Source: Acidobacteriota bacterium
Lineage (GTDB): Bacteria > Acidobacteriota > Terriglobia > Bryobacterales > Bryobacteraceae
DNA: 10,764 nucleotides
Reading direction: 5' to 3'
Assembly: GCA_026394095.1 (NCBI GenBank)
Contig: JAPKYY010001032.1
Span: 1 to 10,764 of the forward strand
In this document: positions 1,321 to 10,505 of the stretch, in pieces
How the letters are laid out: every line of letters starts with the position of its first letter
How positions within the stretch are numbered: position 1 is the stretch's first letter
Notes under the pieces: generated by a model
Database searches by the model: none
What the model was told of the DNA's origin: nothing
Seen by the model: only the letters and a program-made list of their open reading frames with translations
Position numbers and translations under genes: made by a program

Positions 1321-1335
1321 AGCCGCTTACTTCTT
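1309..1335 (+). terminator. Possible terminator of the epimerase operon
   Basis: A 7-bp stem (AGCGGCT 1309-1315 / AGCCGCT 1321-1327) closes the loop TCTAA, which contains the epimerase stop codon. It is followed by TACTTCTT on the plus strand. The stem is short and the T-run is interrupted, so this is weaker than the minus-strand terminator nearby. Confidence 0.45.
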
Positions 1336-1926
1336 AACGGGAGCTGCAGTCTTGGGAGCTGCCGGAGCTGCAGTCTTCGGGGCTGCAGGAGCTGCCATCG
1401 TCGAAGGAGCATTTGCGTCATAAAGCTTGATCACTTCGTTTGTGATGTCGAGGGTGTTCGACGCCCAGATTACCGGAGTCTGCGGTGAGCTAATGTCGAG
1501 GATCATCGAGAAGCCGTTATCCGTGGCGTACTTGTTGATCACCTGCATGATGCGGCCACCGAGTTCGTTCAGCACCTTCTGCTGTTCCTGATCGAATTCA
1601 GCCTGGGCATCTTCGCTCTCACGTTGCAGGCTCTTCGTCTTCATTTCGATGTCTGTCTGGAGCTTGCGTTTTGCTTCTTCGCTGCCTACTGTCCCGAGCT
1701 TCTGGTATTGGGCCTGCAGTGCCTGTACGCTTGCATTGGATTTCTCAATATCCTTGCGGCGAGGTTCAAAGCGTGTCTGGAGCTCAGCCGCCGCCTTCTG
1801 GCCGTCTTTTGTTGAGACTATTGCCTGCTGAATATTGATCGTGCCTACTTTGTTCTGCGCGAAAGCGGAGACGGAGAGACCGAGCACTACAGCGCCGGCC
1901 AGGATGTTTTTAACGAAAATGCTCAT
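1327..1926 (-). CDS. skp: OmpH/Skp-family periplasmic chaperone
   Basis: This 199-residue protein fits the Skp (OmpH) family, trimeric periplasmic chaperones that hold unfolded outer-membrane proteins on their way to the BAM complex. A signal peptide is clear: basic MSIFVK, a hydrophobic core, and AFA|Q cleavage near residue 23. The mature start KVGTINIQQAIVST matches the family's first strand (VGxVDxQxxL). Residues ~42-125 form the long charged coiled-coil arm, rich in Gln, Glu and Lys. The family's conserved C-terminal strand region follows (NKYATDNGFSMILD, 131-144). The last ~25 residues are an unusual Ala-Pro-Lys-Thr repeat tail absent from the E. coli protein. It starts 41 nt after bamA, with a purine-rich AAAGAGAAA ahead of the ATG, which is the classic bamA-skp order. 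It is convergent with the epimerase gene, 6 nt apart. Confidence 0.9.
   Translation of the reverse strand: MSIFVKNILAGAVVLGLSVSAFAQNKVGTINIQQAIVSTKDGQKAAAELQTRFEPRRKDIEKSNASVQALQAQYQKLGTVGSEEAKRKLQTDIEMKTKSLQRESEDAQAEFDQEQQKVLNELGGRIMQVINKYATDNGFSMILDISSPQTPVIWASNTLDITNEVIKLYDANAPSTMAAPAAPKTAAPAAPKTAAPVKK
1340..1396 (-). repeat. 24-bp tandem repeat encoding the Pro/Ala tail of Skp
   Basis: About 2.4 copies of a 24-bp unit (1340-1363, 1364-1387, partial 1388-1396) encode the octapeptide pattern A-A-P-K-T-A-A-P in the C-terminal tail of the Skp-like protein. Units 1 and 2 differ at only a few bases. Such in-frame repeats may vary in copy number between strains. Confidence 0.8.
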
Positions 1927-1967: not shown

Positions 1968-4121
1968 TTAGAATGTGCGGCTGATCGTAAAGCGGAAGAT
2001 TCTCTGTCTTTCGCGATACGGGCTGCCCTGGCCAAACTGGGCAACCGAGTTGATAAAGGTGGCTTGGTTCGGGAAGTACGACCTGTCAGCTGCGATCGGC
2101 GGCTGGATAAAGTCGTCAACCCGGAGGGGATTGAAGGCGTAGTAGAAGCGGAAGGGCGCATTTACAACCGGCATCATAATCTGTACTTCAAGGCCGGTTG
2201 ACATGCGGGGCTTCTGGGTGAAGTCGATTAGGAAGGCTTTGTTTTCAAAGCCAGCCTGCGGGAAGTCGGCGTTCAGCTGAGCGATTCGACCCGGGTTGAG
2301 GTTAAGGCCGTTCGAGCGGCTAATTCGGTTCACACCGATGTCGGCAAAAGCGGCCAGGACTACCGGGCCAAAGATCGGAATCCGGTACTCAAAGTTACCG
2401 ACACCCTGCGTGTCGCCACCTGGATAAATGATCTGGTAGGTAGGGATGGTCTGCGTGACATTGCTCAAAACGAGCTTGCCGTCTGTGCCGATGGACCGCT
2501 GAATTCTGGCGCTGCCATCTTCGTTCAAGACCGGAACTGTGGCCTTGCTGGGAATGTAGGCCAGAGGGCTGATACCCCAGATGTCAAATCCGCGGATATC
2601 ATTTTCACCACCCATGTAGAAGCGGTTGAATGGCGGTGCAGTTTTGCCGCCATAACCAGTGATGAAGCGGCCCAATGTGTGGACCCCGATGACGTGGCCC
2701 TTCTTGAAGCCAGCGCGGAAGTACTTGAAGTCAATCGTGGGTTCGATCATGTTGGTGTTGCCACCGAGGAAAGAACCAGCGAAAGTGCTTGAGATGTAGA
2801 TCGACTTACCGCGAGAAGGCGTGACCGGGTGATCGACTGTGTTGTATGAGTAGTTGGGGATGATCGATGACTGACGGATACCGGAGAGCTGGTTGGGGCC
2901 GTCAAGGTTCTGGAAGTTCACCGCTTCGAAGTAGGTACGGGCGGCCGTTGTGGACGGAGCGTACTTTGAATTCGAGTAGCTGTAGGTGAGGCCGACACGA
3001 GCAAAACTTCTACGCAGAAGTGTCGAGGCATAGGCGGTGAATCCGTAGCCGTTGGACGAGTAGTTGAGCAGGTTGTCGCGGCCGAGCGAGTTGAATTGCT
3101 GCGTCAGGTTACGACCGGAGAAAAGCGAAACTTCGCGGCCCTGATCGTAATTGAAGCGCTGGTAGAAGATCGTGAAACCAACCTGGACTGGCTTATCGAG
3201 GAAATAGGGTTCGGTAAAGCCGAAGGTTGCCGAGCGGATTCGGTCACCCAGCTGGGTGTCGAGAGAAAGCGTCTCGCCGAGGCCCAGGAAGTTGTTGGTG
3301 GAGTAGCCGAAGCTAACGAAGCTGCCAGCGATGCCGGAGACGCCACCGGACATCTGGACCGAGTTCTTTCCGCGTTCCTTCACCTTGAGAGTGATGTCAA
3401 CGGTATTGTTTTTGGTGTCGCGGGTAATGTTTGCAGCTTCGTTTTCTTTGAGAACTTCAAAGTAGCCGAGCTGGTTGAGGCGAAGCAAGCTGACTTCCCA
3501 TAGGCGGGAGTTGAAGAGATCACCTTCGTCGAGGAGGATTTCACGACGGATTACCTTGTCGCGCGTTGTCGTGTTGCCCGCAAAGTCGATGCGACGAACG
3601 AAGAACTGTTTGCCTTCGTCTACATTGAGCGTAAGGTCGATCTTGCCGTTCTTGATGTCTGGCTCTAAACCTGGCTCAGGAACGAAATCAAGGAAGCCGA
3701 ATTGGCCGTAAAGCTTGCGCATGTCTTCGAGACCCTTGCGGAGCTTTGCCGTGGAAAATACGTCGCCTTCTCCCATGCCAAGGACTCTGCTAAAGAGTTC
3801 TTCGGGTGCGCGGAAAAATTTGACGCCAACCAGGTTCAACTTCTGTAGGCGGTACTTTGGCCCTTCGTCAATGTTGACCCTGAAATCTGCGCGCTTGCCG
3901 GGTTTGTTTGGCTTAACTACAGGAATACGAAAGCCCTTGCCACCGACATCCTTGATCACCGGGTCTTCGGCGCTAGCCTTAGCTGTAAAGTAGCCCTTCT
4001 CCTGATAGAAGCTTTGGACGCGGCTCATGTCTTCTTCGAGCTTTGTGGCGTCATAGGTCTTGGCGAAGAGGTTCTCAAGGAGGATGGAACGTGGGATACC
4101 AACCGGACGCAGGTTCTTCAT
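1968..4121 (-). CDS. bamA: BamA, C-terminal fragment: POTRA3-5 and outer-membrane barrel
   Basis: This 717-residue frame holds most of BamA, the Omp85 protein that folds and inserts beta-barrel proteins into the outer membrane. It contains the rest of POTRA3 (to ~88), POTRA4 (~90-168, ending LTLNVDEG), POTRA5 (~172-250, VRRIDFAGNTTTRDKVIRREILLDEGDLF) and the 16-strand barrel (~255-717). The barrel has the loop-6 motif IRGF (Arg510) after GGEND and a terminal Phe (FTISRTF), the usual recognition end of outer-membrane proteins. The first Met is not a natural start. The same frame reads back through VGNIDIQGNKVFSDAVVRRA, plain POTRA3 sequence, with no stop before 4190 and no Shine-Dalgarno sequence before the ATG. 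The piece overlaps the N-terminal fragment as ATGA, so coupled reinitiation is possible, but a frame-disrupting deletion or sequencing error is more likely. Confidence 0.85.
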   Translation of the reverse strand: MKNLRPVGIPRSILLENLFAKTYDATKLEEDMSRVQSFYQEKGYFTAKASAEDPVIKDVGGKGFRIPVVKPNKPGKRADFRVNIDEGPKYRLQKLNLVGVKFFRAPEELFSRVLGMGEGDVFSTAKLRKGLEDMRKLYGQFGFLDFVPEPGLEPDIKNGKIDLTLNVDEGKQFFVRRIDFAGNTTTRDKVIRREILLDEGDLFNSRLWEVSLLRLNQLGYFEVLKENEAANITRDTKNNTVDITLKVKERGKNSVQMSGGVSGIAGSFVSFGYSTNNFLGLGETLSLDTQLGDRIRSATFGFTEPYFLDKPVQVGFTIFYQRFNYDQGREVSLFSGRNLTQQFNSLGRDNLLNYSSNGYGFTAYASTLLRRSFARVGLTYSYSNSKYAPSTTAARTYFEAVNFQNLDGPNQLSGIRQSSIIPNYSYNTVDHPVTPSRGKSIYISSTFAGSFLGGNTNMIEPTIDFKYFRAGFKKGHVIGVHTLGRFITGYGGKTAPPFNRFYMGGENDIRGFDIWGISPLAYIPSKATVPVLNEDGSARIQRSIGTDGKLVLSNVTQTIPTYQIIYPGGDTQGVGNFEYRIPIFGPVVLAAFADIGVNRISRSNGLNLNPGRIAQLNADFPQAGFENKAFLIDFTQKPRMSTGLEVQIMMPVVNAPFRFYYAFNPLRVDDFIQPPIAADRSYFPNQATFINSVAQFGQGSPYRERQRIFRFTISRTF

Positions 4122-4867
4122 CGCGCGCCGAACAACCGCATCGCTGAATACCTTGTTTCCCTGAATATCAATATTTCCAACTTGGAAAGGTATTCCTTTA
4201 GAACATTGGCGGCACGCTGGATCTTGTTGGGGTCGTACTGCTGTTCGACCTGGAGACCTACTTTTCGCTCTTTGAAGCGATCGAGGATCTCAGATACGGT
4301 GACTGACTTCATGCCATCGTACTTGATCGAACGAACCACGCGACGCTCGGTGACTACGTAACGGATGATCCAGCCAGTGCGGCCAGCTTCACGTTCCAAT
4401 CGGATGTCGTCGAATCTTGCGGTGTTCCATAGAGCCATGAAGTCCCGATTCAAAGAATCCTGGCTGTACTTGTCGCCCTTCTTGCTGATGATGAGTGCAC
4501 GAAGCGTGTCCTGGGGGACGCGACGCGAGCCGCGGAACTCGATAGCTTCGATTACGTCTTCAGATGGGGTGTCTGCCTGTGCAGGAGCTGGAGTCGCTGC
4601 AGTAGGCGAAGGCTGTGCGGGGTTCTCCAGTTTTGGCTTTGCAGGTGCCTGAGGCTCCGGCTTCGGCGCATCAACAGGAGTGGACGAAGGAACATTTTCA
4701 AATGGATTCGCGGGTTTGGGCTTGGCTGGCTGGGGTGCCGGAGGTTGAGATACCGGTGGCTGCTGGCTAGCTTGCTGCGCGAGTAGTGAAGAGTATGAGA
4801 ACGCCAGAACAACAACAATAGACTGCAGAAATGGCATACCCAGGCTTGCTCGCCTGTAAGACATCAT
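4118..4867 (-). CDS. bamA: BamA, N-terminal fragment: signal peptide, Pro-rich linker, POTRA1 and part of POTRA2
   Basis: This 249-residue frame encodes the start of BamA. A signal peptide covers ~1-30 (hydrophobic LQSIVVVLAFSYSSLLA|QQ). It is followed by a ~70-residue Pro/Ala/Lys-rich linker (31-102), longer than in E. coli BamA. POTRA1 covers ~104-175 (VIEAIEFRGSRRVPQDTLRALI). POTRA2 begins at ~176 (VVRSIKYDGMKSVTVSEIL) and reads normally through its second helix (NKIQRAANVLKEYLS, to Ser228). After that the frame is nonsense (KLEILIFRETRYSAMRLFGAR) and stops, because the correct frame has moved by one base. The last two strands of POTRA2, roughly 30 residues, are found in no frame. An AAAGGAA sits ~10 nt before the ATG pair; Met1, Met2 and Met11 are alternative starts. 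As drawn, this fragment could not form BamA alone. Confidence 0.8.
   Translation of the reverse strand: MMSYRRASLGMPFLQSIVVVLAFSYSSLLAQQASQQPPVSQPPAPQPAKPKPANPFENVPSSTPVDAPKPEPQAPAKPKLENPAQPSPTAATPAPAQADTPSEDVIEAIEFRGSRRVPQDTLRALIISKKGDKYSQDSLNRDFMALWNTARFDDIRLEREAGRTGWIIRYVVTERRVVRSIKYDGMKSVTVSEILDRFKERKVGLQVEQQYDPNKIQRAANVLKEYLSKLEILIFRETRYSAMRLFGAR
4184..4190 (-). other. Frameshift/deletion junction in bamA
   Basis: The seven bases CCTTTCC fit both flanking readings. In the upstream frame they belong to KEYLS (end of the POTRA2 helix); in the downstream frame they belong to PFQVGNI (start of POTRA3). This is what a deletion between two copies of a short repeat, or an assembly collapse, would leave. 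The frame shift is -1 (equivalent to +2). No classical slippery heptamer in the upstream frame is seen. Confidence 0.6.
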
Positions 4868-5565: not shown

Positions 5566-6819
5566 ATGACAATGCGGCTCGTATGTATCACCGGGATCGG
5601 CGTTATCAGTCCGAATGGATTGGGGCGCGAGGAGTTTTGGCGAAATACGCGAGCGGGCCAGAGCGGGGTTAAACAAATTTCCAGGTTTGATTGTTCAGGA
5701 CAGCCTGTGCAGATTGCCGGCGAAATTGTTGGATTCAATCCTCTCCAATACATGTCGGCCAGAGATCTCGACGGAACCGGCCTCGCAACGCCTTATGCAA
5801 TCGCTGCTGCCGGCGAAGCTTTGGCTGATGCCCGAGTGGATTGGCAGTCGATGGACCTTGACGCTCTTAGGCGAGTGAGCGTCTACGTCGGAAGTGGCGG
5901 AGGCAACCAGGAGTTTACTGAGAGACAGTATTCTTACTACTACAGCGGGCAGCAGAAAAAATGTAGTGTTTACGTAATCCCCTCCAGCACGCTGGGGACT
6001 CTGGCCAGTGAAATTTCGATGCAATATGGTTTTCGTGGCCTGAGCCACATGTTCAGCAACGGCTGCACCAGTTCTACCGACGCGATCGGTTATGCTTATC
6101 GAGCGGTCAAATATGGTGATGCCGAAATGGTAGTTTGTGGCGGAGTGGATGCCCCCATCGCACCACTCACGTTAAGGGGTTTCCAACTGTTGAGGATCAT
6201 GAGTACGGGTTCTAATGAAGCTCCCGAGCGCGCCTCAAAGCCATTCAGCGCTAGTCGCGATGGCTTTGTTCTTGCAGAAGGTGCCTGGTTTTTCGTGATG
6301 GAGAGCGAAGAAAGTGCTCGCCGCCGCGGTGCGTCAGTCTATGGAGAAATTGCCGGCTATGGGGCGACTTGTGAGGCATTCCACCGGGTCAGGCTGGAGG
6401 AGGTGGGCATAGAACCTGCACGGGCGATGGATTTAGCAATGACGGAGGCCGGGTTCAAGCCTGAAAGTTTTGACTACATTCACTATCATGGCACTGCCAC
6501 TCACCTGAACGACCGCGTGGAGACGACGGCGGTAAAGTTGGCCTTTGGGGATTATGCGCAGAACTTGCCGGGTTCTAGTGTCAAGAGCATGATTGGTCAT
6601 CCTCAGGGAGCTTGCGGGGCGGCAAGTCTGGCGACAACATTGCTTGCGATGAGAGATCGGTTTGCACCACCCACGATCAACCTCGACGAAGCTGCAGCGG
6701 AATGCGATTTGGACTACGTTGCAAATGTAGGCAGAGCGCTGGAAATTAAAAAAGCGATGGTGAACACCATCGCTTTTGGGAGCAAGAATGCAGCTCTTGC
6801 GGTCGGACTTGTAGACTGA
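5566..6819 (+). CDS. Orphan beta-ketoacyl-ACP synthase, FabF/KAS II-like
   Basis: This 417-residue thiolase-fold condensing enzyme should join an acyl-thioester to malonyl-ACP with loss of CO2. The N-terminus MRLVCITGIGVISPNGLG is typical. The nucleophile is Cys167 in SNGCTSSTDAIGYA, with His308 in HYHGTATHLND, Lys340 (SSVKSMIGH) and His345. These match the FabF Cys-His-Lys-His set in order and spacing. The C-terminal gate motif is AFGSKN. The nucleophile elbow GCTSS resembles that of type II polyketide KS-alpha proteins (GCTSG) more than the ACAT(G/S) of housekeeping FabF. No acyl carrier protein, chain-length factor or reductase is in view. ATG 5566 was chosen because GGAG lies 12 nt upstream; ATG 5572 is also plausible. 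The frame stays open upstream to 5398, but that extension is not family-like and is antisense to the membrane gene. The product could be a secondary lipid, polyketide or specialised fatty acid; fabF is not assigned. Confidence 0.88.
   Translation: MTMRLVCITGIGVISPNGLGREEFWRNTRAGQSGVKQISRFDCSGQPVQIAGEIVGFNPLQYMSARDLDGTGLATPYAIAAAGEALADARVDWQSMDLDALRRVSVYVGSGGGNQEFTERQYSYYYSGQQKKCSVYVIPSSTLGTLASEISMQYGFRGLSHMFSNGCTSSTDAIGYAYRAVKYGDAEMVVCGGVDAPIAPLTLRGFQLLRIMSTGSNEAPERASKPFSASRDGFVLAEGAWFFVMESEESARRRGASVYGEIAGYGATCEAFHRVRLEEVGIEPARAMDLAMTEAGFKPESFDYIHYHGTATHLNDRVETTAVKLAFGDYAQNLPGSSVKSMIGHPQGACGAASLATTLLAMRDRFAPPTINLDEAAAECDLDYVANVGRALEIKKAMVNTIAFGSKNAALAVGLVD
6743..6777 (-). terminator. Strong intrinsic terminator of the polysaccharide operon, inside the synthase gene
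   Basis: Perfect 13-bp arms (6750-6762 and 6765-6777) centre on GCGATGGT/ACCATCGC, with an effective loop GAAC. Read on the minus strand the GC stem is followed by TTTTTTAATTT, a strong uridine tract. It lies ~46 nt beyond the kinase stop codon. On the plus strand the same stem has only TTTT then GGG, and termination there would remove the synthase stop codon, so the site is best read as acting on the minus strand. Confidence 0.85.
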
Positions 6820-6822
6820 ATT

Positions 6823-9294
6823 CTAGTCGGGTTTCGAGTAGTAATAGGTGTGATAGTAGGTGTACTTCGAGTAGAGTTCGCCACGGCGTGCGCCGTTGAC
6901 GACAGTACCCAAAATATTGTTTTCACACAAGGACTGTATGGCTCGGGTGATGGAATCGACCGTCGTTACACCAAGGCGTACGACCAGAACCGTACCATCT
7001 GACATTGTGGAGAGAAGATTCGCATCCGCCGCAAACAGGAGCGGCGGCGTATCGAGAATTACCCAGTTGAAAACCTTTTCGAGATTCTTGAGAAGCTCCC
7101 GTACCTTGTCAAGATTCAGCAATTCCAGCGGATTGATTACCGCTTCACCAGCAGGAAGGATGCTGAGATTGGTGCCAGCTACTTTCTTGATGATTTGCTC
7201 CATGGTCGCTTTCCCGAGAAGGTAGTCTGTGATGCCCGGTGAGCGGTCGACCTGAAAGAGATTGTGTACGAGCGGACGACGGAAGTCGAAGTCGCATAAT
7301 AGTGTGTTGTTGCCAGCCAGGTGAGACTCAGCGAGTGCGAGGTTCACAGCTGCCATCGACTTTCCTTCTGCGGGTGACGGGCTTGTCACGACTACAGTAT
7401 GGATAGGCTGCAGACTCTGCAGGTGATTGAGCCTGGTTCTAAGCGTACGGAACTCTTCGCTGGGTGCTTCATGGGGGCGCGAGGCATCAATCAGATGTGC
7501 GTCCTGCGAAGGATTAAAAGGGATCTCCTGTATGCGCTCAAGGAGGTTTTCGAAGTCGGGAGGAAGGATTGCAGGTGGCGGACTTAGAGTTCGTGAGACC
7601 GGTGCCGAATTTCTCGGCTGGCCCTGGAAATCAGTCGGGCTAACCCCGGATCGCCTTAAGGCGTCATGTACTCGGCTCATTAATGTTGCGGTTGACCAGG
7701 CAAGCCAGGTCAATCTGCGGCGACGACGTACTACCAAGTCATTTTCGAGCAGAGGAATGCAGCCGAGGATGGTTAGCTGGGTATAGGCACGGACATCCTT
7801 AAGATTCTTGAGGGTGGAATCTTTCATTTCCTTCGCACCAGCAAAACAGATGCCAAGGATCAAACCACCGATTGCGCCACCGAGGATGATGATCCATCGC
7901 TTCGGTTCTGTCGGATTTTGAGGAAGAGAGGCTTGATCGAGAACTTCCAGCTTTTCCGTTTGCTTGCGATTTTCGAGTTCTACGGCAGCGTTGGCGCGCT
8001 GACGCATGCGGTCGATTTCTTCAAAGTCGCGGCGAGCCATCATGGCTGAGAGCCGAAGCTGTTCGTATTCTTTCTCGCTCGATGGCAGGGTGGCCAACGT
8101 ACCCTGAAGTGTGCGGGCTGCTCTATCGGCATCCTGAAGGCCTTTTTTATAAGACTCTTCTTCCATTTTGGAAGCTTCAATTCTGCCCATCAATTGTTGG
8201 ATCTGTGCTTCCAGGCTTCGTGCTTCGCGAACAGCTTCCGGTCTCAGCCCAGAAATTGAGCCACCGGTTTTCTTGGCTGCAGCCTCGAGCTCATCCTGAG
8301 TTTTCTGGAGACGATCCTTTTCCTTTTTCAAGATCTGGAGGTTCCCGATGGAGGCCTTGATATCAGGATGAGATTCCTGATATTGCTCACGAAGGCCCTG
8401 AAGGCGAGTTTCAAAGTTTGCGATTTCACGCTCAAGGGTTACAAGGCGATCGTTGCGTGGCACCAAGGCAACAGGTACGGTTTCAACCGTTGGAGTTGTT
8501 ACCTGCTTCAACTGATCTTTCAAAATGCTGATCTGGTTTTCGATGATCAATCGATCTTGATTGACCCTTCCTAATGCCGCGTTGATATTGGTCATCCGCG
8601 TTTCGATGCCGTTAATCGCCGAGAAAGTTGCCCCCTGCTGTTCAGGCGTTCTGCCGACATTGGCGGATTTGAATTTCGACATCTGTTCTTCAATTGCATC
8701 GAGATCTCGCTTTCGCGTTTGCCACTGATCTTCGACGAAATCTTTCATCTGGGAAGAGGAACTGGCTCGTTCTCGAACGTTTTCGTCAATGAATTTGGTG
8801 ACCAGATCCTGGCAGACTCTTTGAGCCGTAACCCGGTTTTCGTATTTGAAGGCTACAGAAAAAGCTAAGGTTTTTGTCCGATTCTCTCCACCGCCTCCGA
8901 TAGGGGTTACAAAAACAGCTTTTGACCGCATGTTTTCGATAATGTCTTCCATGGGGAGGCGCTTTCTCTCTCTGGGATAGAGCGAGTGAGTAGTAATGAT
9001 GTTCGTTAGCGTTGCTCGGCTGAGAATGCTCTGAGTCATCTGGTTGACTCGTTGACTCATGTCGACGGTTAAGGGCATTGAAAGCAGCCCTTCTGGTACC
9101 TGGGGAGGAAGAACACGTATAGTGGCACTGGAAACATAGGTGTCCGGCCAAAGGAAGGCTACAACCACACTGATCACCAGTCCAGCCAACATTGGAGCGA
9201 GGATTAAGGACCGATGGCGGCGTACGACGTCGATGTAGTCTTCTACATCCAGCGCTCTGTGCTGAATGGCAAGTGGATCTTGTAAAGGTTGCAC
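6823..9294 (-). CDS. Wzc-like polysaccharide chain-length regulator fused to BY-kinase
   Basis: This 823-residue inner-membrane protein combines a Wzz chain-length domain and a bacterial tyrosine kinase, as in Wzc-type co-polymerases that gate polymer length and export. It begins with a cytoplasmic N-terminus (DVEDYIDVVRRHR), then TM1 (~30-49) and a periplasmic region with long coiled coils (~180-450). The Pro-rich GNVR-type segment PQNPTEP (458-464) and TM2 (~467-486) follow. The cytoplasmic kinase has the ExxRxxR oligomerisation motif (Glu613, Arg616, Arg619), Walker A SPSPAEGKS (638-646), Walker A' CDFDFRRP (667-674), Walker B VILDTPP (745-751) and a C-terminal tyrosine cluster with seven Tyr in 808-819, the usual autophosphorylation tail. 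The start is GTG, supported by AGGAG 9 nt upstream. It lies 29 nt after the Wza-like gene and ends 3 nt from the convergent synthase. No tyrosine phosphatase or glycosyltransferase is in view. Confidence 0.9.
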   Translation of the reverse strand: MQPLQDPLAIQHRALDVEDYIDVVRRHRSLILAPMLAGLVISVVVAFLWPDTYVSSATIRVLPPQVPEGLLSMPLTVDMSQRVNQMTQSILSRATLTNIITTHSLYPRERKRLPMEDIIENMRSKAVFVTPIGGGGENRTKTLAFSVAFKYENRVTAQRVCQDLVTKFIDENVRERASSSSQMKDFVEDQWQTRKRDLDAIEEQMSKFKSANVGRTPEQQGATFSAINGIETRMTNINAALGRVNQDRLIIENQISILKDQLKQVTTPTVETVPVALVPRNDRLVTLEREIANFETRLQGLREQYQESHPDIKASIGNLQILKKEKDRLQKTQDELEAAAKKTGGSISGLRPEAVREARSLEAQIQQLMGRIEASKMEEESYKKGLQDADRAARTLQGTLATLPSSEKEYEQLRLSAMMARRDFEEIDRMRQRANAAVELENRKQTEKLEVLDQASLPQNPTEPKRWIIILGGAIGGLILGICFAGAKEMKDSTLKNLKDVRAYTQLTILGCIPLLENDLVVRRRRRLTWLAWSTATLMSRVHDALRRSGVSPTDFQGQPRNSAPVSRTLSPPPAILPPDFENLLERIQEIPFNPSQDAHLIDASRPHEAPSEEFRTLRTRLNHLQSLQPIHTVVVTSPSPAEGKSMAAVNLALAESHLAGNNTLLCDFDFRRPLVHNLFQVDRSPGITDYLLGKATMEQIIKKVAGTNLSILPAGEAVINPLELLNLDKVRELLKNLEKVFNWVILDTPPLLFAADANLLSTMSDGTVLVVRLGVTTVDSITRAIQSLCENNILGTVVNGARRGELYSKYTYYHTYYYSKPD

Positions 9295-10046: not shown

Positions 10047-10104
10047 TAGAACTGTAGTACTGAGGTGTCATTCTTGAGAACCTAAGAATGAATCGACAGT
10101 TCTA
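10047..10104. repeat. Nested inverted repeats upstream of the EVE gene
   Basis: The outer arms are TAGAACTGT (10047-10055) and ACAGTTCTA (10096-10104), 9 of 9 complementary. The inner arms are TCATTCTT (10068-10075) and AAGAATGA (10084-10091), 8 of 8, around an 8-nt loop. As RNA this gives two stacked stems with a 12/4-nt asymmetric internal loop, ending just before GGGGGAG and the EVE start. As DNA it could be an operator pair between the divergent genes. It makes up the right third of the 168-bp intergenic region. Confidence 0.6.
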
Positions 10105-10124
10105 TGGGGGAGATGAGAAGGCGA

Positions 10125-10505
10125 ATGAAATATTTTTTGGCAAAGTCAGATCCACTGACGTACTCAATTGACGATCTGGAGCGTGATGGGAAGACAGCTT
10201 GGGATGGGGTTAAGAACGCTCAAGCACAACAAGCGATCAGGACAATGGAGGATGGAGACTGCGTTATTTGCTACCACTCCCAGGGACAGGCGGCAATTGT
10301 AGGCTGGGGCTACGTAGAAGGAGCTGTTTGGGTTGATGCCGCAGATCCCAAAATGAGCGTATTCACCTATCGATTCGCTGAAATCAAAGAGAGCGGATTG
10401 TTCTCAGATTTCGCTCTGGTCAAGCAATCCAGACTCTCGACAATGGCTGCCCCAAAAGAATTCGTGAACTGGCTAAAAAAGCGGGCTAAAGAGTTCAAAC
10501 CTTAG
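10125..10505 (+). CDS. EVE-domain protein
   Basis: This 126-residue protein is a stand-alone EVE domain, a PUA-like fold that in characterised relatives binds modified bases in DNA or RNA. Typical landmarks are the start MKYFLAKSDPLTYSIDDL (1-18), the WDGVKNAQAQQAIRTM segment (26-41), the core strand DGDCVICYHSQGQAAIVGWGYV (43-64) and ALVKQSRLSTMAAPKEFVNWL (97-117). The length is slightly below the usual 135-150. ATG 10125 is preferred because family members start MxYWLxKSEP. GGGGGAG (10106-10112) and GAGAAGG (10115-10121) lie just upstream; in-frame ATGs at 10104 and 10113 would add a basic MGEMRRR leader. Its 3' end overlaps the Maf gene by 11 nt. The target nucleic acid is unknown, and no restriction or methylase gene is adjacent within the window. 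Confidence 0.88.
   Translation: MKYFLAKSDPLTYSIDDLERDGKTAWDGVKNAQAQQAIRTMEDGDCVICYHSQGQAAIVGWGYVEGAVWVDAADPKMSVFTYRFAEIKESGLFSDFALVKQSRLSTMAAPKEFVNWLKKRAKEFKP

Follow-up and report, generated by a model that had tools for sequence, protein, structure and literature searches.

A split bamA gene in an Acidobacteriota draft genome is very probably an assembly join across about 100 missing bases

The bamA gene in the window (the whole stretch of DNA analysed here, 10,764 nucleotides) lies in two reading frames, and at the break between them 100 bp are missing relative to related genomes. The window is the entire contig C522 of the draft genome G000, which has 5,049,699 bases in 1077 contigs and is 88.9% complete. 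From sequence comparison we consider it very probable that the split is an assembly join and not biology, and that the organism itself most likely carries one normal copy of bamA. Draft metagenome assemblies are known to contain genes split where scaffold gaps were closed or stripped. Two pieces truly about 100 bp apart would here have been joined at about 4181-4184 with the bases between them omitted, either by stripping of a scaffold gap (a run of Ns) or by butting two contig ends together, and the omitted bases would still exist in the organism.

The nearest congener, G003, was used as the reference for all comparisons of joins and indels, and it has the same gene order as the window from end to end. 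The genes of the window are, in order, an unnamed ORF, an aldose epimerase-like gene, ompH, bamA, a hypothetical gene, a ketoacyl synthase gene, a Wzz/kinase gene, an export protein gene, an EVE-domain gene and Maf. The OmpH/Skp-like gene (1327..1926, minus strand) is intact, and it adjoins bamA in all six congeners compared.

The original prediction described bamA as split with good BamA sequence on both sides, and this was confirmed. The 5' part (4184..4867, minus strand) carries residues 1-228 in the correct frame, that is the N-terminus (hydrophobic by eye), a proline-rich linker, POTRA1 and the start of POTRA2; it is 89% identical to P0121 and 91% identical to the protein of G003, the two closest intact proteins. 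The left ORF (4867-4118) encodes 249 amino acids, of which the last 21 after residue 228 (...KEYLS) are in the wrong frame; this tail and its stop (4118..4183, minus strand) are spurious and overlap the correctly framed right part. The 3' part (1968..4181, minus strand) belongs to a 773-codon open frame, resumes in the other frame at the valine codon 4181-4179 (VGNIDIQGNK...) and stays open to the end of BamA at 1968. It runs from the POTRA2/3 boundary over the remaining POTRA domains into the Omp85 barrel and is 95% identical to G003 and 96% identical to P0121; the listed right ORF starts inside it at the ATG at 4121. The Pfam cut-off was passed by one POTRA domain in the left ORF and by three in the right ORF, which also has the Omp85 barrel (PF01103, E 8e-36); POTRA2 is cut by the join. 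The G000 assembly thus holds no single continuous bamA reading frame. In its POTRA domains, its barrel and the ompH-like gene downstream the window resembles BamA/YaeT of the Omp85 superfamily, as known from Bryobacter aggregatus (P0132, 86% identical to the right part) and from the E. coli BamA structures, and it differs from them in the 100 bp of POTRA2 that are absent in the G000 assembly.

The size of the missing stretch follows from the interval between the serine of KEYLS and the valine at which the right frame resumes. This interval is 34 residues in relatives and 2 bases in the window, hence 100 bp are missing at the join (4181..4184) and the frame changes. Two alignments concur, one placing a 100-bp deletion at 4180 and the other giving a net loss of 100. 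Sizing the gap by aligning relatives had been proposed together with an estimate of about 30 residues lost from the last two strands of POTRA2. In alignment with E. coli-type BamA the missing part falls at the end of POTRA2, presumably on its last two strands.

A comparison set of 80 bamA loci was kept out of 131 matched. In 79 of these the gene is unbroken with identical spacing at the join site, and the missing stretch is present in all five congeners compared for it. The exception is L058 (a MAG, isolate gp3 AA111), with a frame break of its own at about 6594-6596, at reference residues 259-263 and some 35 residues beyond the break in the window. Counted by sequence, 124 of 130 span the join, many of them being the same contig fetched twice; those that do not are the window, its two copies (L001 and L004), two unrelated loci (L002 and L003) and L058. 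None of the relatives examined has the split of the window.

At genome level the N-terminal part of bamA was matched in 60 of 61 genomes, G000 itself included. Only G007 gave no match; it is the only genome of the same genus without one and is 79% complete, so that its missing match is probably missing sequence. Among the 59 matching relatives, the open frame at the main match is 833-1110 codons long in 54 and shorter, at 117-669 codons, in five (G023, G025, G037, G055 and G056); locus L031 of G025, one of these five, spans the join. No split fragment like those of the window was seen among the best 120 of 487 protein matches (best 81%), which is weak evidence as the proteins were clustered and limited in length. 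An intact copy from the same species was not found. The best relative is P0121, and from its 89% and 96% identity on the two sides of the join its source is probably a congener and not the same species.

The two fragments were also compared with intact genes at the codon level. Between the window and G003, dN is 0.020 for the left part (130 codons) and 0.034 for the right part (737 codons), with dS saturated (>1.5). The six pairs formed by four intact congeners give 0.033-0.114 over the same parts. As the window values are about or below those of intact pairs, no decay is seen, and the two parts carry no further frame break. A pseudogene reading of bamA is unlikely; the locus is under strong purifying selection and the gene is otherwise strongly conserved.

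A shared CCTTTCC at both edges of the gap had been taken to favour deletion or collapse between short repeats. This motif occurs in a single copy in the window (4184-4190). In the 79 loci it is exact at the left edge in one and present in 18 when one mismatch is allowed, and at the right edge it is found in none, nor in any with one mismatch. Since the motif is never at the right edge, the proposed deletion between repeats is unsupported.

Compared with G003 the window carries seven indels, all of them losses, and three of these are large (100, 96 and 30 bp). The 96-bp loss lies at a second join (7681..7682) and takes the end of the Wzz/GNVR gene together with the spacer before the gene that follows, an AAA gene of BY-kinase type. 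The two genes are thereby fused into one ORF of 823 codons (6823-9294), where G003 has separate ORFs of 559 and 292 codons; the first of these stops at the join point in the six congeners aligned. The 823-codon ORF should thus not be taken as a natural BY-kinase fusion. The 30-bp loss (10377..10378) removes 10 residues from the EVE-domain gene (10104-10505), and all four aligned relatives have these residues.

To cover more of the assembly, G000 was searched with five 20-kb stretches of G003, and the matching contigs and a few others (20 stretches) were aligned to G003 together with the window. This gave 21 contigs, of which 17 were aligned, the window included; of the other four, C3 was masked and C414, C1 and C2 lacked any match of 120 bp. 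A blunt join was defined as a gap within 5 bases on the contig at which 60-400 bp are missing, a definition set after the data had been seen. Ten blunt joins lacking 83-321 bp were found in 88,357 aligned bp. The two sides of each join share no more than 5 bases (range -5 to +3), which means little or no repeat. Ten of the 17 contigs have no such join. The ten joins fall in the other seven, with two in the window and, by alignment to G003, one at about 1483 in C394 (L171), one at about 6027 in C788 (L192), one at 652 in C380 (L193), one at 8532 in C759 (L198), one at 3594 in C82 (L176) and three at 676, 1366 and 3815 in C969 (L199).

The missing stretch lies wholly within a G003 ORF of at least 100 codons at seven of the ten joins and partly at two, and no such ORF is found for the C82 join; not all of these ORFs need be genes. 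By Pfam, the genes cut code for, among others, ATP synthase subunit a, a protein with a poly(A) polymerase head domain (CCA-adding type), a fatty acid hydroxylase, a PhzF-like protein and a DUF4097 protein. The genes for the first two, split by the joins in C394 and C788, are each left in two frames. About 51 residues of ATP synthase a are absent in G000; G001 and G004 have the complete gene, and G005 and G006 have nearly all of it. For the joins in C788 and C82 and those at 676 and 3815 in C969, the third genomes examined gave no confirmation of the missing stretch. The base composition of the missing stretches is unremarkable.

Twelve of the 22 events between G000 and G003 do not meet the definition of a blunt join. 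Five are indels of 15-39 bp within alignments, namely four losses (one being the EVE loss of the window) and one 39-bp insertion in C212. The other seven are wider gaps (bases in contig/reference): 15/2538 in C212, 912/2467 and 1253/1533 in C292, 30/485 and 1091/2139 in C380, and 1556/80 and 37/290 in C788, where 1556/80 is a large gain of gene content in G000.

As controls, 15 stretches of G001, G002, G004, G005 and G006, some of them overlapping one another, were aligned to G003. In 150,568 aligned bp they show no blunt join of 60-400 bp. They do show two larger ones (557 and 561 bp, both at one site of G003), as well as net losses of 23-79 bp and more that are not blunt. The same lesion thus recurs elsewhere in the G000 assembly and not in the relatives (10 joins in 88 kb, and none of this size range in 151 kb of controls), with the reservation that the controls stand further from G003 than G000 does (identity mostly about 66-81% for the controls and mostly 80-94% for G000), so that their breaks fray more. 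With the expected proportion taken from the aligned bases, the binomial probability that all ten joins fall in G000 is 5e-5; it becomes 1e-3 if the two larger joins of the controls are set against them.

Furthermore, the assembly does break at short gaps, as is seen from unjoined contigs that lie close together on G003. Along C11 of G003 (from C788 to C244), four of eight neighbouring contig pairs are 13, 50, 52 and 73 bp apart. In another of the eight pairs, the end of C380 (L193) and the start of C394 (L171) share an exact overlap of 21 bases, possibly a hint of a short-word assembler.

Vital genes cut by the same blunt and nearly repeat-free loss make poor biology and are what is expected from gaps closed without their bases. 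G000 resembles known errors of closed or stripped scaffold gaps in that the joins are blunt, are nearly always losses of up to about 320 bp with 5 or fewer shared edge bases, fall in any frame and hit core genes. Of the three causes offered by the original prediction, loss in assembly or sequencing is therefore the one supported. A real deletion, in which the strain or a fraction of its population recently lost 100 bp of bamA, would leave the fragments otherwise clean, as they are. We nevertheless consider it improbable, because similar blunt losses occur about once per 9 kb in the sampled sequence, the ATP synthase a gene being one of those affected, and because the edges of the bamA join carry no repeat. 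Furthermore, bamA is essential in the Gram-negative bacteria studied, which also counts against it.

The split gene could instead be a dispensable copy beside a second, intact bamA that an assembly only 88.9% complete might lack. This is highly improbable. Neither the right fragment nor the POTRA family nor an intact congener, used as queries, retrieved a second bamA from the G000 assembly: all four POTRA matches lie within the bamA locus and other matches are below 15 bits. The locus also keeps the bamA-ompH order of the congeners and is under the purifying selection described above. A two-piece BamA made from the overlapping ORFs, by coupling at an ATGA or by frameshifting, has a practically negligible probability. 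The overlap predicted at 4121-4118 does exist, and both ORFs are conserved. Its ATGA, however, is an in-frame Met-Lys of the intact gene in all six congeners shown, and the start of the right piece is internal to the protein and not at the N-terminus of the gene, so that this piece would be made without the N-terminal export signal. Even with frameshifting, the product would be missing a stretch whose length is invariant in 79 loci, and no relative examined shares the split. That bamA is truly in two pieces without part of POTRA2, the organism living with a split or shortened outer-membrane assembly factor, is extremely improbable. In all, the original prediction is partly supported: it described a true sequence feature and had the right kind of cause among its options, and it was wrong in detail.

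If about one join per 9 kb held over the 5.05 Mb of the assembly, there would be several hundred such joins in it. Gene splits, fusions and short deletions from the G000 assembly, such as the Wzz-kinase fusion, should then not be counted as biology. A split bamA would be remarkable if true, but the evidence points the opposite way, and the main value of the case is caution.
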